IMG/VR virus record: IMGVR_UViG_3300009104_000040
Location: 1-42,703 of that record
DNA length: 42,703 nucleotides
Reading direction: 5' to 3' (one strand)
From: a virus
The translations under genes were made by a program, and so were the position numbers. The notes under the pieces were generated by a model, which worked only from the letters and a program-made list of their open reading frames with translations, was not told the origin of the DNA and did no database searches. Of the stretch, positions 29,938 to 35,465 are shown in pieces. Every line of letters starts with the position of its first letter. Within the stretch, counting starts at the first letter, position 1.

Positions 29938-32055
29938 ATGGCCAACACCAAAGACAAAGAAGGTTTGGATTTAAGTTCATCTAAAGCTATCGAAGAAGCA
30001 TTCGCCAAAGGGGCAACTAAGTCGGAAGTTCTGAAAGAACTACTTAAAGTTAATGAAGAACATAGAAATAGTTCCCAGAAGGCAGAAATTCGGAGATTAA
30101 AACAAGAGAAGAAGCTTGCAGATAAAGCCGAAGCAAAGGAACAGGCACTTCATGACCTTGTGGAAAATCAAAGAGACGCAGTTGATAGACTAAACGATAC
30201 TACAAGAACTTCCCTTAAAGAACTGGGAAGTGATGGTAGAACTATGTCTGGTAAACAATTGGAAGCAATTGCACAACAAAATGGTTGGTCTAAAGAAAGA
30301 TTGCAGAATGCAAAAGAAAATGCAAGAGAACAAGTTGACCTGTCAAAACAAATAAAGGCCAGAGAAGAGTTCCTAAATGAAACCACTGGTGGTGTTCTAG
30401 ATGCAACCCAAGATGCTGAACTTAATGAGATGAAGAGACATCAAACAAGACTTAAGTCTCAACAAAGGGTACTTCAAGACAATACTAAATTATTTGGTAG
30501 TCTTAGAGCAACTCTTTCAGATATCCCAGGCGCATTCAATCAATTCATAGATACTCAAAAAGAATCAATCACTAAAGGTGAATTATCTGCAAAGGGTCTT
30601 GCTGGATCATTTAAAGATGACTTCACTAGACTTGCAGGGCCACTTGGTGGTATCCTACAACAGATTCCATTCTTAGGCAGTATTGCAAAACTAGGTAAAT
30701 CTATCTTGTTAAGAATGTTAATTGCAATGAGGGATGCTTGGGTAAGATACAAGAATGATCCTAGTCGAAGTATGTTAGCATTCTGGAAGAAGAAAGATAT
30801 CCAAGATAAGAGACAAAAGAGAAGAACAGAGGTCAAGAAAGCAAAAGCAGACAAGACTAAACCAGTAGAGAAAGATAAAGATGGTGGTGGATTGAGTATG
30901 CCTATGGGAATGAAGATTGCTGGTATTGCAAAAGCACTCCCATTACTAGCTGCACCAATTAGAATACTTGGTATGGCATTTGCATCATTAGGGCCTCTTG
31001 CAGGGCCAATGGTAGTAGGTGCTGGTGGTCTTGCACTTGCAATTGCAGCCTTAGGTGTTGGAGTCGGTGTTACATTGGCTGCAATGGCATTAGGTGTAAC
31101 TGCAATGGGACTAGCACTTCCAGTTCTATCAAAAGGATTTGAATCATTTGCAGACTTACCAGCAGATGATATAAGATACAACATATCAGAGATCGGTAAG
31201 TCTATGGGATGGTTACTTGCAATGGCATGGATTACTCCCCTTGCAAGTCTTGCTGGTGCATTATCTGGTGGTCTACCTAAACTTGCAAAATCATTTAAAG
31301 CATTTGACCCTACTATAGAAGGTAATGTAGATGGTAAAGAAGTTGCAAAGAATATCAATGCACTTGGTGAGGGAATGGATGCACTTAGTAAGATTACAAC
31401 TGGTAGTTTAGGTGCAGCGTTTAAAGGATTTATTGCAGACATGTTCACTGATGACAAAGGGCCAGGCCCATTAGAGAAGATGGCAAATGACTTAAAGGCA
31501 TTTGAATCACTTAATGGAGAGAAGTTAATGTCAGTAGGGCCTGGAATTACAGCAATCGGTAAAGGAATGGAAGCGATGAGTGCTGGAGAAGGTGGATTCT
31601 GGTCTGGAGTTGGTGAAGGTATTCAAAGTTTCTTTGGTGGTGGTACAGTAGAAACACTTCAAAAGGTTGCAGAATTACCAGACACATTAGAGTCTAAAGG
31701 AAATGCAATTCAAACAGTTGCAAATAGTTTCAGTGTATTAGGTACTGCATTAGATGGAATATCATCAGATAGTCTTGACAAACTTGCAGATTCAATGGAA
31801 ATATTAAGTGATGCAGAAGTAACTATTACCCCATCAGTTCAAGTTGCAAATCTGGCCAACATGATGATTCCTCAAGCAATGGTAACTGGTGGTGCAATTG
31901 CAGCTGCAGCGGGTGCTGGTGTTACTAGTGGTGGTTCTGGTCTAATGATTACAAATGTTAGTAATGTAACTAATCAAAATAATCAAGTGAAAAATAGAAA
32001 CATCAGAGCTACTGGGTCTATGAGATCAGACTCTAATTTCAGTCAAGTACATTAA
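29938..32055 (+). CDS. 29: tail tape measure protein (gp29-like)
   Basis: 705 residues, compared with 590 in T4 gp29. The N-terminal third is highly charged coiled coil (KSEVLKELLKVNEEHRNSSQ, SQKAEIRRLKQEKKLADKAE). Basic segments follow (KKKDIQDKRQKRRTEVKKAK), then a long hydrophobic Ala/Gly/Leu-rich middle (about residues 320-420) and a repetitive C-terminal region with ALGEGMDALSKIT-type turns. This layout and its place after gp26 identify the protein that sets tail length and is ejected with the DNA. The stop overlaps the stop of the convergent lipoprotein gene. Confidence 0.78.
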   Translation: MANTKDKEGLDLSSSKAIEEAFAKGATKSEVLKELLKVNEEHRNSSQKAEIRRLKQEKKLADKAEAKEQALHDLVENQRDAVDRLNDTTRTSLKELGSDGRTMSGKQLEAIAQQNGWSKERLQNAKENAREQVDLSKQIKAREEFLNETTGGVLDATQDAELNEMKRHQTRLKSQQRVLQDNTKLFGSLRATLSDIPGAFNQFIDTQKESITKGELSAKGLAGSFKDDFTRLAGPLGGILQQIPFLGSIAKLGKSILLRMLIAMRDAWVRYKNDPSRSMLAFWKKKDIQDKRQKRRTEVKKAKADKTKPVEKDKDGGGLSMPMGMKIAGIAKALPLLAAPIRILGMAFASLGPLAGPMVVGAGGLALAIAALGVGVGVTLAAMALGVTAMGLALPVLSKGFESFADLPADDIRYNISEIGKSMGWLLAMAWITPLASLAGALSGGLPKLAKSFKAFDPTIEGNVDGKEVAKNINALGEGMDALSKITTGSLGAAFKGFIADMFTDDKGPGPLEKMANDLKAFESLNGEKLMSVGPGITAIGKGMEAMSAGEGGFWSGVGEGIQSFFGGGTVETLQKVAELPDTLESKGNAIQTVANSFSVLGTALDGISSDSLDKLADSMEILSDAEVTITPSVQVANLANMMIPQAMVTGGAIAAAAGAGVTSGGSGLMITNVSNVTNQNNQVKNRNIRATGSMRSDSNFSQVH

Positions 32056-32246
32056 AACAATTCATCTGCTGAACAGTAGTCAGCACTTCTACAAGTCCTA
32101 AGTTTATTCTGAAACTCTACAGGTTCTACCCATTCAAATTCTGGAAGTATCACAGGATCAAATAAGAAATCTGTTCCCGCTATTTGTTGACAACCCATTG
32201 TCAAACACATACATCCACTCATCAAACACATACATAAAGTTTTCAT
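32052..32246 (-). CDS. small Cys-rich lipoprotein coupled to the cytochrome/copper gene
   Basis: 64 residues. The N-terminus (MKTLCMCLMSGCMCLTMGCQ) is a short hydrophobic signal with candidate lipobox cysteines at 12 or 19. A Pro/Glu/Phe-rich part follows, with two more Cys (RTCRSADYC). Its start overlaps the stop of the cytochrome/copper protein as ATGA, so the two are made together from one message. It may anchor or supply the enzyme in the envelope, for example as a copper-binding partner, but that is a guess. Confidence 0.6.
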   Translation of the reverse strand: MKTLCMCLMSGCMCLTMGCQQIAGTDFLFDPVILPEFEWVEPVEFQNKLRTCRSADYCSADELF

Positions 32247-33523
32247 TTCATACCTCTTTCCAATTTAAGTTTATTATAACCCTCATCATCCAAGTGTGTA
32301 ACGGCTAACCATGCATGAGTCATCTCATCACCTGTTCTACTACCACCAACTACCCATTGATCTGGGTCTGGATTGTTGGGATTATTACTTGTGTTATCAT
32401 ACCATTGTTTCAATACTATTACTGCACCTGTAGGAAGTAGTGGTGCAACATCTGGATCAAACAAATGACTATGATGCCATACTGCACTCCAATTACTAAT
32501 CTGACTTATTGGTTCAGTTATGCCTGTTTCTGGATAAAATATCTCCATACTTGCAGCGTTCATTCGTAAGTGTCCATGAGGTTGAAAACTGTCAATCCTT
32601 ACTGGATGGTCGAATGAATGAAACCCTTGAGTCATGTAATAGTCATTAGGTGGGATGACAATATCTTCCTGTTTACTAATCCTATACAAACTTAGGTCTT
32701 GTTTGTAAGTTAATTCTTTACTCTCTTCTTCTGAATATAACCAGAGACCAATCTCAACAACATTATCTTTAATTATATCATCTTGGGACATTGTACCAAG
32801 TCCGCCGGGAAACATGTGGATATCCCATAATACTTGTGCATTTGCTGGTAAGGTTCTACAGACACCAGTAGGTACTATTTCACCCCACTTACCCATTGCA
32901 TATTCTGTTAACATACCATACCTTTGTTCACCCACTTCAATAGATGAGTTTGCATGGTGAACAACAGACTTTGCATCACCTCTAGGTTTAACCTGTACTG
33001 CACGAATACAACGATCTTCTGTTAACCCTGTTGAGACATAGTGTTTATGCCACATATCATTACCACTCGCTGGTATGTCTATTGGTATTGAAGGGATAAC
33101 TAAATTTGGTTGACCAAAGTCACCCTCAAATGACCATGCATCTAAATCTGGAAGAAAAGGAGGCTGTAAAACGATATCTGTATCCCCATAAGGAGAACCA
33201 TTTTTTACCCAATTAACTACCATATCAATGTCATTTTGTGGTAGTCTCCAGTCACCTTGTAGGTCTTGAATACCTATCCCATGATCGTATGCATAAGGTG
33301 GCATTTCTCTAGTCGATATTTTGTGTTGTATTAGAGGAGCCCAAGGTCTTACTTGTTCATAAGACTCAAAACTCATAGGCCCTATCCCACCTTCTCTATG
33401 ACATACAACACAATTATTATTAATTATTGATGATACTCCATCAACATAGGTGGGTTCATCTGCGTATGTTACACCAGCATAAAAGGCTATACAAATAGCC
33501 AGTACTATATATAAATAATTCAT
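32243..33523 (-). CDS. exported cytochrome c / copper type II monooxygenase-like protein
   Basis: 426 residues. A Sec signal (LYIVLAICIAFYAGVTYADE) is followed by a single haem c site CVVCH (38-42) with possible axial Met in GPMSF (50) or REMPPY (74). The C-terminal 270 residues show the ligand pattern of peptidylglycine/dopamine monooxygenases: HH at 189-190, His-236 in WDIHMFPGG, HGH at 316-318 (FQPHGHLRM) and Met-401 in GDEMTHAW. Cys-172 and Cys-222 could form a disulfide. Proteins joining a cytochrome c domain to this fold occur in marine bacteria. The substrate is unknown. I know of no standard phage gene like it. It has its own late promoter and a structured GC-rich leader. Haem attachment would need the host Ccm system. 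Confidence 0.82.
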   Translation of the reverse strand: MNYLYIVLAICIAFYAGVTYADEPTYVDGVSSIINNNCVVCHREGGIGPMSFESYEQVRPWAPLIQHKISTREMPPYAYDHGIGIQDLQGDWRLPQNDIDMVVNWVKNGSPYGDTDIVLQPPFLPDLDAWSFEGDFGQPNLVIPSIPIDIPASGNDMWHKHYVSTGLTEDRCIRAVQVKPRGDAKSVVHHANSSIEVGEQRYGMLTEYAMGKWGEIVPTGVCRTLPANAQVLWDIHMFPGGLGTMSQDDIIKDNVVEIGLWLYSEEESKELTYKQDLSLYRISKQEDIVIPPNDYYMTQGFHSFDHPVRIDSFQPHGHLRMNAASMEIFYPETGITEPISQISNWSAVWHHSHLFDPDVAPLLPTGAVIVLKQWYDNTSNNPNNPDPDQWVVGGSRTGDEMTHAWLAVTHLDDEGYNKLKLERGMK

Positions 33524-33536
33524 TTGTAATCCTCTG

Positions 33537-33555
33537 AATTCTCTGGATGAGAATT
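33537..33555 (-). other. hairpin just upstream of the cytochrome/copper gene
   Basis: AATTCTC and GAGAATT form a perfect 7-bp stem with a 5-nt loop, ending next to the GAGGAT ribosome-binding site of the gene at 33523. It could modulate translation or protect the 5' end. Confidence 0.5.
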
Positions 33556-33559
33556 AAAG

Positions 33560-33625
33560 TGTTGATTCTAGCCCCACTTCCCGCCGTCAACCTACACCAC
33601 TCTGCCGCTTAGGTGCATTTCCTCG
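33560..33625 (-). other. GC-rich structured 5' leader of the cytochrome/copper gene
   Basis: About 60% GC in a genome near one-third GC, non-coding and inside the predicted 5' leader that starts near 33643. ACCTA/TAGGT (33590-33594 with 33610-33614) and GTTGA/TCAAC can form stems. It contains a D-arm-like GGCAGAGTGGT but no matching acceptor or T-arm. It may be a regulatory RNA element or imported fragment. Confidence 0.4.
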
Positions 33626-33648
33626 AAGTATCTTACCCCTTCATCATA

Positions 33649-33656
33649 TATTTATA
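33649..33656 (-). promoter_or_regulatory. T4-type late promoter for the cytochrome/copper operon
   Basis: TATAAATA on the minus strand, 21 nt after the gp32 stop. It predicts a message with a leader of about 120 nt before the ATG at 33523, the longest leader in this window. Confidence 0.7.
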
Positions 33657-33677
33657 AAAAATCAATAATGGATAAGA

Positions 33678-34568
33678 TTAAACATCATTTGCTAACTTCT
33701 CAAAATAAGACATTGAGTTGTCATCTGTCTCAACAAATGGTATGTCTGTCTCTTTTGCAGTCGGCATTGGTGATGGTTGTGCTACATCAGTAAGATCATC
33801 TGATCTAGTAGATGCAGTTGCAGTTGCAACAGCAAGTCCTAGAACCCTGTCCAACTTCTCTTTCAATTCGTCATAAGACTTGAATTGATCTGGTGCAATA
33901 ACACCTTGTAGAGAATGTTGTGAGTTCCAAGTTGCTTCCAACTGGTCTTCGTCTTCAAACAAAGGTTTTGGTGCATTGAATTCGGACTTATCATAGTTCC
34001 AGAATCCATCTACTTTCCTTACCTTGATTTTGAAGTTTGCACCTTCCCATAAGTCAAAAGGATTAACTGGAGTTTCATCCTCAAATGCTGGTTGCATTTT
34101 ATCCTTTAACATTTCAAAGATTTTCTTCCCAAATCTGTATAGGAATACTTTACCTTCGTTTTCTGGATGTGCTGGGTCAGATACCACATAGATGTTAGAA
34201 ACATAGTGTAACCTTCGTTTCTGTTTTCTTGCAATATCTTTATTGCTTTCAATACCAGAGTTCCAGAGTTCAGAATTATAATCTGAAACTGGGTCGTTTT
34301 TAGAGAGAGTAGTCAGAGATTTCTCAATATACCACCCACCTGGCCCTTGAAAACCATGATCCCAATATTGAACCCAAGGCATATCTTCCCCATTAGGAGC
34401 AGGAAGAAATCTTACTTCGGCAAATCCATTTCCAGATTTATCCATCTCGATTTTCCAGAATCGGTCATCTACATAAGATTTTTGGGTATTGTTACCACCA
34501 GAGGTTTCTAGTGATTTTTGTAGTGTATCAAACCCACTACGGCTTCGTTTTAAGTCTTGAAAAGACAT
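33678..34568 (-). CDS. 32: single-stranded DNA-binding protein gp32
   Basis: 296 residues (T4: 301). It shows the gp32 core (GNGFAEVRFLPAPNGE, WDHGFQGPGGWYIEKSLT, PENEGKVFLYRFGKKIFEM, LWEGANFKIKVRKVDGFWNY) and the acidic C-terminal tail that recruits replication proteins. The Cys zinc ligands of T4 gp32 (CPVC) are absent: the corresponding stretch is KNDPVSDYNSELW, so this OB fold probably lacks zinc. It is read in the gp33-bS21-gp59 cluster and has an additional promoter inside the upstream gene. GAGGAAAA is its ribosome-binding site. Confidence 0.95.
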   Translation of the reverse strand: MSFQDLKRSRSGFDTLQKSLETSGGNNTQKSYVDDRFWKIEMDKSGNGFAEVRFLPAPNGEDMPWVQYWDHGFQGPGGWYIEKSLTTLSKNDPVSDYNSELWNSGIESNKDIARKQKRRLHYVSNIYVVSDPAHPENEGKVFLYRFGKKIFEMLKDKMQPAFEDETPVNPFDLWEGANFKIKVRKVDGFWNYDKSEFNAPKPLFEDEDQLEATWNSQHSLQGVIAPDQFKSYDELKEKLDRVLGLAVATATASTRSDDLTDVAQPSPMPTAKETDIPFVETDDNSMSYFEKLANDV

Positions 34569-34592: not shown

Positions 34593-35465
34593 TTAATCGT
34601 ATAACACTGTTTTACTAAGTGGATGAACACTTAATTCATCCTTCATATAATAATAACTTATGTTTTGGAATCTGTCAAGTAAAAGATTCAGTTGACTGGT
34701 TTGAGTTCCTTTGACTGAGTTAGGATCATCTAGACCTTCTCTCAATCTTTCGTTCTCACCAGTATGACCATCATCCCTTACATAACAATCACTTCCAGCA
34801 TAAATGTTATTATAAGTATTTATATCATAATTCCATATGGAATCAAATCCCACATAAACTATGTTATCATACTTTCCTGTCATGGAAGCCATTGCAGCTG
34901 CACTGGTTCCACAAAAGAAATTCTCAAATAAGAATGGGTCATCTTCTGGCCCTCTTATTTCTTTAATTCTGTAATCTTCCTCTACTCCTATTGATTGCAT
35001 TTCTAGAATACCTATATTACCATTACCCTTTCCATGCATAGTGACATGTGTATGTTGAGGTAGTATATGTTCTACTACTGGGACTTCCATTGTTTGTTTA
35101 ATCACTGGGTATTCATCAGTTCTATGTAATGGGTCTTCCCACTCTCCAGAGAAGTAACAATCATGATATCTAGGATATTCAGACATGCAACACTCACCCA
35201 TAATACTTACATCTACTATGGTTAAGTAATCACAGTGGTAGTCTCTAAACAGTGCATTACAACCCCATATGTCCCCACCAAGCACATCTAAGTCCAACCC
35301 AGTCCTAGACACCCCATTACCTACCACATAACATGTCTTTAAACTGTCAAGATTGAGGTAAGAAATCGTTGGATTCATGATATTTTGAGTCATTGTAGGA
35401 CTTGAAATTGCACTCTGTTCAAAAAATCGTTGGTTAAATAGATGTTTATCGTATGTCATGTCCAA
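34593..35465 (-). CDS. GNGxSR-motif protein, Rossmann-like, function unknown
   Basis: 290 residues. The N-terminal TCYVVGNGVSRTGLDLDVL and DIWGCNALFRDYHCDYLTIV give a GNGxSR...GCNALxRD pattern I recall from other marine phage and bacterial proteins, some near sugar- or nucleotide-binding DUF115-type folds. The C-terminal half has GTSAAAMASMTGKYDNIVYV, also Rossmann-like. Its gene lies between gp59 and gp32, overlapping gp59 by 10 nt. A nucleotide- or sugar-binding role is possible; no reaction can be named. A promoter for gp32 lies in its 3' end. Confidence 0.6.
   Translation of the reverse strand: MDMTYDKHLFNQRFFEQSAISSPTMTQNIMNPTISYLNLDSLKTCYVVGNGVSRTGLDLDVLGGDIWGCNALFRDYHCDYLTIVDVSIMGECCMSEYPRYHDCYFSGEWEDPLHRTDEYPVIKQTMEVPVVEHILPQHTHVTMHGKGNGNIGILEMQSIGVEEDYRIKEIRGPEDDPFLFENFFCGTSAAAMASMTGKYDNIVYVGFDSIWNYDINTYNNIYAGSDCYVRDDGHTGENERLREGLDDPNSVKGTQTSQLNLLLDRFQNISYYYMKDELSVHPLSKTVLYD
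34650..34678 (-). promoter_or_regulatory. sigma70-type promoter for gp32 inside the upstream gene
   Basis: TTGACA (34673-34678), a 17-bp spacer and TATTAT (34650-34655) on the minus strand. The predicted start is near 34643, about 75 nt before the gp32 ATG. It would allow extra gp32 expression independent of gp33-gp59. Confidence 0.55.

Follow-up and report, generated by a model that had tools for sequence, protein, structure and literature searches.

Introduction

What could a phage do with an exported protein in which a haem c attachment motif is followed by all the residues expected for the two copper sites of the PHM/DBH enzymes? This question is raised by the IMG/VR virus record IMGVR_UViG_3300009104_000040, whose 42,703 nucleotides (the whole stretch of DNA, here called the window) encode a 426-residue secreted protein of this kind together with a 64-residue lipoprotein. 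The window was compared with related stretches numbered from L001 onwards. By homology in sequence and predicted structure, the larger protein is assigned to the type II copper monooxygenase superfamily, and we consider it rather likely that it serves the phage as a late-expressed auxiliary metabolic enzyme in the periplasm of the host. The coordinates of the locus are collected in Table 1.

Fold and Superfamily Membership

The first-pass annotation, which was made from the DNA letters and a list of open reading frames (ORFs), had described a signal peptide, a CxxCH motif at residues 38-42 and a complete set of copper ligands (HH 189-190, His-236, HGH 316-318 and Met-401 in a DEM context). The signal sequence was found, the motif reads CVVCH at exactly this place and every ligand lies at the given position. 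An AlphaFold2 model based on an alignment of 94 rows reached a predicted local distance difference test score (pLDDT) of 89.4 and a predicted template modelling score (pTM) of 0.85. In a fold search of the PDB its 31 best matches were all PHM or DBH (E 3.4e-13 to 1.9e-9, probability 1.0), with a template modelling score (TM) normalised by target of up to 0.64 at 10-13% sequence identity, and the next match dropped to E 1e-5 and TM 0.15.

Searches with the single protein against Pfam, NCBIfam, PHROGs and PDB sequences returned nothing informative, and DBH was reached only by a profile with remote bacterial relatives. This profile of 13 sequences, comprising the window protein and bacterial paralogues of the architecture AhpC/TSA-cyt c-Cu2_monoox_C, finds human DBH (4zel) with E 2e-5, matching the HH, H and HxH motifs and thereby five ligand histidines, while M401 lies beyond the end of the alignment. 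The profile A1 gave no useful match in the PDB. The hidden Markov model (HMM) searches proposed in the first-pass annotation thus gave a divided answer: the window protein alone matches no Cu2_monooxygen model of Pfam and its match to Cytochrome_CBB3 stays below the cut-off (17.4 vs 27 bits), whereas full-length bacterial paralogues pass Cu2_monoox_C (PF03712) with 27.2 bits at a cut-off of 23. The AhpC/TSA-cyt c-Cu2_monoox_C paralogues align across the entire window protein, and the CxxCH and six copper ligands are invariant between them. Since it is the relatives that match Pfam directly, membership in the superfamily is concluded via intermediates. Taken together, the predicted fold, the DBH profile match and the PF03712 matches of the bacterial relatives support the earlier reading as a member of the copper monooxygenase family. 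The protein shows the features of this superfamily, i.e., the two-domain beta-sandwich fold of PHM and DBH, the CuH pattern His-His...His and the CuM pattern HxH...Met, and those of a class I cytochrome c, namely CVVCH and an invariant M74PP, of which Met74 would ligate the haem.

A narrower identity was rejected. Against a peptidylglycine hydroxylase in the narrow sense (PHM) speaks that the phage operon contains no PAL-like gene. Peptide amidation through a PAL neighbour was discarded, since the NHL propeller encoded near some bacterial copies matches TRIM NHL domains equally well.

Conservation of the Haem and Copper Ligands

The alignment reaches down to about 22% identity. As H189, H190, H236 and M401 are invariant in these 94 sequences, as is M74, the named residues do not occur by chance. 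H316 and H318 are lost solely in one bacterial paralogue group, which has R-x-N (RMN instead of HGH). The same group accounts for the 11 rows lacking CxxCH, and there the chosen starts lie too far downstream (open frames of ~570 residues). Every viral copy examined, from both viral subfamilies, keeps all six copper ligands. The motifs of the window protein are spaced by 46, 80 and 83 residues, close to the 64, 70 and 70 residues in PHM.

Table 1. Positions of the enzyme, its partner and their regulatory elements in the window.
Feature	Positions	Strand	Evidence or remark
Coding sequence (CDS) of the 64-residue lipoprotein partner	32052..32246	-	Start overlaps enzyme stop, ATGA at 32246-32243
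CDS (incl. stop) of the 426-residue secreted protein, assigned as haem c/dicopper monooxygenase (PHM/DBH fold)	32243..33523	-	ORF, alignment, AlphaFold2 model, fold search, DBH profile match
Met401 (in GDEMTH), proposed CuM ligand 3	32321..32323	-	Invariant, 94/94 rows
His316-Gly-His318, proposed CuM ligands 1 and 2	32570..32578	-	71/94 rows; aligned with DBH HTH
His236, proposed CuH ligand 3	32816..32818	-	Invariant, 94/94 rows; aligned with DBH VHY
His189-His190, proposed CuH ligands 1 and 2	32954..32959	-	Invariant, 94/94 rows; aligned with DBH HH
Met74 (MPP), proposed distal haem ligand	33302..33304	-	Invariant, 94/94 rows; role by analogy with class I cytochromes c
Haem c attachment CVVCH, residues 38-42, proximal His42	33398..33412	-	83/94 rows
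N-terminal signal sequence, residues 1-21, probable cleavage after VTYA	33461..33523	-	Sequence; hydrophobic helix 2-15 in model
Likely ribosome-binding site AGAGG	33531..33535	-	Sequence, 7 nt upstream of ATG
Leader, ~125 nt	33524..33648	-	Conserved within the phage lineage; 92.7% identity to L002/L003
T4-type late promoter motif TATAAATA	33649..33656	-	126-133 nt upstream of ATG; identical in L001-L003

Phage Context, Distribution and Selection

The enzyme and lipoprotein ORFs lie between gp32 (33678-34568; phrog_224, E 3e-113) and a convergent ORF of 705 residues. As gp32, gp59 and genes for tail tube, baseplate hub, gp5 and gp53 surround the pair, this contig represents part of a T4-like phage genome, and its gp32 is closest to those of phages of Methylophilales, Synechococcus and Pelagibacter (54-57%). 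A homologue search of IMG/VR yielded at least 240 confirmed viral stretches, of which the best 80 (72-100% identity) were kept. These fall into several contexts: the gp32/gp59 T4-like setting (the window and L001-L003), a T4-like setting with gp9/10-like, UvdE and IscA-like genes (17 loci), a podovirus-like group with NrdA, NrdB, DUF3310 and an M15 endolysin (22 loci), in which NrdA is closest to Pelagibacter phages (60%), and neighbourhoods with HSP20/MazG or gp44. The pairing of enzyme and lipoprotein, for which a search of other marine viral contigs had been suggested, recurs, T4-like loci included.

In a careful maximum-likelihood tree all 52 viral rows form one clade (support 98/99), separate from the 12 bacterial rows. 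In a larger quick tree one bacterial lineage (L083, L087) falls within the viral part, so that transfer back to bacteria is possible. The ratio of nonsynonymous to synonymous substitution rates (dN/dS) is 0.05-0.12 for several viral pairs and 0.36 for the window versus L002/L003; the viral copies are under purifying selection. The gene thus has the traits of a phage auxiliary metabolic gene, being metabolic, derived from a host, located in genuine phage genomes and retained by selection.

That the segment is host DNA misassembled into a viral contig, and no phage gene, had been named in the first-pass annotation as what would overturn its reading, and homologues are indeed chromosomal in marine Gammaproteobacteria. 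However, L001-L003 share the order with gp32, gp59 and structural genes, and the order gp32-enzyme-lipoprotein recurs in records of other metagenomes at 88% identity, so that independent assemblies already refute this explanation. The GC content of the enzyme gene (38%) is phage-like, matching the window (37%) and not the bacterial homologues, which average 54%, and both the number of viral stretches and the monophyly of the viral copies argue in the same direction. Misassembly is therefore excluded for all practical purposes.

Two stretches filed under metagenome-assembled genomes (MAGs) of Neomarinimicrobiota (L082, PBPT01000016.1) and Flavobacteriales (L086, DQKQ01000288.1) carry the phage genes gp44, MazG or HSP20 and group with the viral clade. 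They are probably misbinned phages, and L082, on a contig of 335 kb, is possibly a jumbo phage.

Probable Alternative Partners Downstream of the Enzyme

The ATGA-coupled partner lipoprotein described earlier was recovered, with the ORF overlap in place and a lipobox that is invariant in 20 diverse members of the family. The invariant positions are G18 and C19 (lipobox GC), C52, R53 and C58 (C-R-x4-C) and F64 (LF tail). The earlier characterisation as Cys-rich holds in part: among the seven cysteines of the protein, conservation is limited to C19 of the lipobox, C52 and C58, and the Cys-richness lies mostly in the signal peptide. Identity as an o-spanin (Rz1-like) was considered and rejected; the lipobox is present, but the protein is not proline-rich, has a conserved C-x5-C and an AExLF tail, and has the enzyme as its partner.

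Of 81 viral loci, 37 encode a member of the family, and no true bacterial locus does, the sole 'bacterial' match being the phage contig L082. Downstream of the enzyme, the lipoprotein is encoded in 36 loci (within 1.2 kb) and a second copper-haem enzyme, B, with the motifs HMH and EDEMF, in 34 (within 3 kb). No locus has both; nine have neither and in two the contig ends too soon. As many contigs are near copies, these counts are not independent, and across the tree the two states switch three to four times. Among T4-like loci, three with B (L005, L006, L053) and three with the lipoprotein (L029, L044, L050) have nearly the same DNA across the 3' end of the enzyme gene and the first ten or so codons of its downstream neighbour, which encode the signal peptide MKKLILLVSS, and are wholly different beyond it. 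Because the shared DNA stops after these codons, a cassette exchange inside the signal-peptide codons is indicated. In some loci with B a free 12-kDa cytochrome c is encoded between the two enzymes. Our reading is that B and the lipoprotein replace each other as partners of the enzyme and may do the same job.

The family alignment is too variable for a scan of the collection, and scans with single lipoprotein sequences gave 16 and 1 loci. In one of these loci the lipoprotein gene lies without the enzyme on a 25-kb T4-like fragment (L175:5001-5171, plus strand) beside ClpX-, ribosomal S21-, HSP20- and ClpS-like genes.

Late Promoter Motif and Leader

The presence of a late promoter of its own, proposed earlier for the enzyme, is supported by the T4-type motif upstream of the gene, which is identical in independent relatives and stands 33-86 nt upstream of the enzyme gene in other T4-like loci. 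The window contains 11 such boxes where 5.25 are expected, and 2 of 100 shuffled sequences reached as many. Sigma-70 promoters and terminators near the operon were not above chance. The leader, confined to three IMG/VR records, is as long as had been described and is conserved, but the description as structured is not borne out by its folding energy, which is ordinary against shuffled sequence (minimum free energy z -0.51). Scans for tRNAs and Rfam families gave no match in it. A hairpin lies directly upstream of the ribosome-binding site, and between the window and its relatives one base pair of a CACC/GGTG stem has apparently undergone a compensatory change (A to T with T to A).

Bacterial Relatives and Proposed Function

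The search of bacterial and archaeal genomes returned 216 stretches, and the best 76, nearly all from MAGs of marine Gammaproteobacteria, were kept. The closest bacterial proteins (Pseudohongiella, OM182 and other MAGs; uncharacterised) are 65-73% identical over the full length and have the same domains and ligands. In the bacterial loci (L083-L157), one to five copper-haem monooxygenase paralogues stand in tandem, accompanied by genes for a GMC oxidoreductase (alcohol dehydrogenase) with gluconate-2-dehydrogenase subunit 3, a cupin, an MFS transporter and a TonB receptor. The commonest neighbour is a secreted Ig-like protein of 317 residues, a predicted beta-sandwich, for which a structure search gave no informative match.

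In enzymes of this superfamily CuH and CuM hold one electron each, and CuM-bound O2 attacks a C-H bond; the animal enzymes draw the electrons from ascorbate. The phage enzyme would be made late in infection and exported through its signal peptide, and the cytochrome c maturation machinery of the host would attach haem to CVVCH. The mature protein would then consist of a haem c domain, with His42 and presumably Met74 as axial ligands, followed by the two-domain copper core. As the haem c domain is fused to this core, we infer that electrons of the periplasmic cytochrome or dehydrogenase pool of the host enter at the haem, which is the probable entry site and would replace ascorbate as donor, and pass to CuH (H189, H190, H236) and on to CuM (H316, H318, M401), where O2, once activated, would hydroxylate a small substrate in the periplasm at a C-H bond. 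For the coupled lipoprotein, the most likely task is to anchor the enzyme to the outer membrane or to aid it there, and the second copper-haem enzyme would take its place in other phages. In the bacteria, the alcohol formed by hydroxylation may be oxidised by the GMC enzyme, with its electrons returning to the monooxygenase; the phage copy would speed such periplasmic oxidation late in infection.

The same fusion of haem c to an O2-reducing copper core, together with the free cytochrome c between both enzymes in some phages, could also fit a respiratory shunt, in which electrons of host cytochrome c are mainly diverted to O2 in uncoupled turnover, altering the redox balance or draining oxygen with no specific product. 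We consider this improbable, as copper monooxygenases of the PHM/DBH fold are normally tightly coupled, uncoupled turnover would produce peroxide, and the conservation, which is strict also outside the ligands, points to a defined substrate.

The main rival holds that the enzyme modifies the envelope, oxidising a surface or periplasmic component of the host (lipid, peptide or peptidoglycan-linked group) and thereby blocking superinfection or preparing lysis; the lipoprotein would serve to position the enzyme at the outer membrane. This would agree with the late promoter motif, the export signal, the alternation of lipoprotein and second enzyme, and the position of the enzyme gene after the M15 endolysin in the podovirus-like group. 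However, no adhesin or lysis signature was found, and the oxidoreductase and transporter neighbourhoods of the closest bacterial relatives suggest small-molecule metabolism, so that we regard this explanation as unlikely.

Some observations weigh against an auxiliary metabolic enzyme. None of the genes that flank the bacterial copies is found in the phage, and a link to that pathway therefore requires a host that has them. The dN/dS of the window against its closest relatives exceeds that of the other viral pairs. Finally, one bacterial paralogue group has lost the CuM histidines, so not all relatives are monooxygenases, although the phage copy keeps all six ligands. Non-catalytic members may thus exist, and the phage protein could in principle be a catalytically idle copper- and haem-binding protein, serving in copper capture or as electron carrier, that retains the fold; with the ligands intact throughout the viral copies of both subfamilies and under purifying selection, this is very improbable.

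A metabolic role for the phage enzyme therefore remains the reading that we prefer. More tentatively, and closer to undecided than convinced, we propose that a swappable module for periplasmic oxygenation is carried by marine phages of two or more unrelated types. It would pair a haem-c-driven PHM-type copper hydroxylase with a second enzyme of this kind or with a lipoprotein specific to phages, and would act late in infection on a compound of the host or of seawater, in a reaction not known from any described phage.

Relation to Known Systems

PHM and DBH (PF01082/PF03712) share with the window protein the two-domain fold, the ligand order HH...H / HxH...M and the extracytoplasmic location; in contrast to these eukaryotic, ascorbate-using enzymes, it is phage-encoded and has an N-terminal haem c domain. 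The marine gammaproteobacterial cyt c-Cu2_monoox proteins differ from the phage copy in that they are arrayed in tandem, together with genes for GMC dehydrogenase, cupin, MFS and the 317-residue protein, whereas the phage copy is accompanied by a lipoprotein absent from bacteria. The AhpC/TSA-cyt c-Cu2_monoox_C proteins of the same bacteria are alignable over the whole cytochrome c and copper core but have an extra N-terminal thioredoxin-like domain and about 30% identity.

PmoC is an integral-membrane protein unrelated to the window enzyme, one subunit of a complex, with neither a PHM fold nor a haem c. As the PmoC of particulate methane monooxygenase is encoded by large freshwater phages (PMC7674155), it nevertheless shares with the window enzyme that it is a phage auxiliary gene with a link to a copper monooxygenase in the envelope of the host. 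Reads of a viral cbb3-type cytochrome c oxidase were reported in ocean viromes (PMC3474794); this is likewise a respiratory haem protein claimed in marine viruses, but of another family and with read-level evidence.

The statement in the first-pass annotation that no described phage gene combines a cytochrome c with this copper fold agrees with our searches: the enzyme had no match in INPHARED (50,697 phage records), in plasmid collections or in PHROGs, the BFVD structures contain no PHM-like model (best TM 0.38), and no report of the enzyme family in a phage or virus was found in the literature, although a gene missing from these libraries may still have been described in the literature. The fold and the gene class are known, and no earlier description of their combination and setting was found. 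PHM-type copper monooxygenases are known mainly from the synthesis of animal hormones and neurotransmitters, and the bacterial members are barely studied. Here, the PHM fold, fused to its own probable electron-entry haem, is encoded by a gene that is widespread among marine viruses. An O2-activating reaction in the periplasm would thereby join the effects of phages on their hosts. The enzyme, small and soluble, may use haem c where its animal counterparts use ascorbate, and it draws attention to a family of enzymes, still unexplored, whose genes stand in tandem in marine Gammaproteobacteria.

Neighbouring Gene between gp32 and gp59

Between gp32 and gp59 the window encodes a protein of 290 residues (34593-35465, minus strand) that has no Pfam match and resembles phrog_30607 (function unknown; E 1.5e-14). 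A small family resembling it (NGESRT...GCNAILRDF) is encoded near the enzyme in other T4-like loci.

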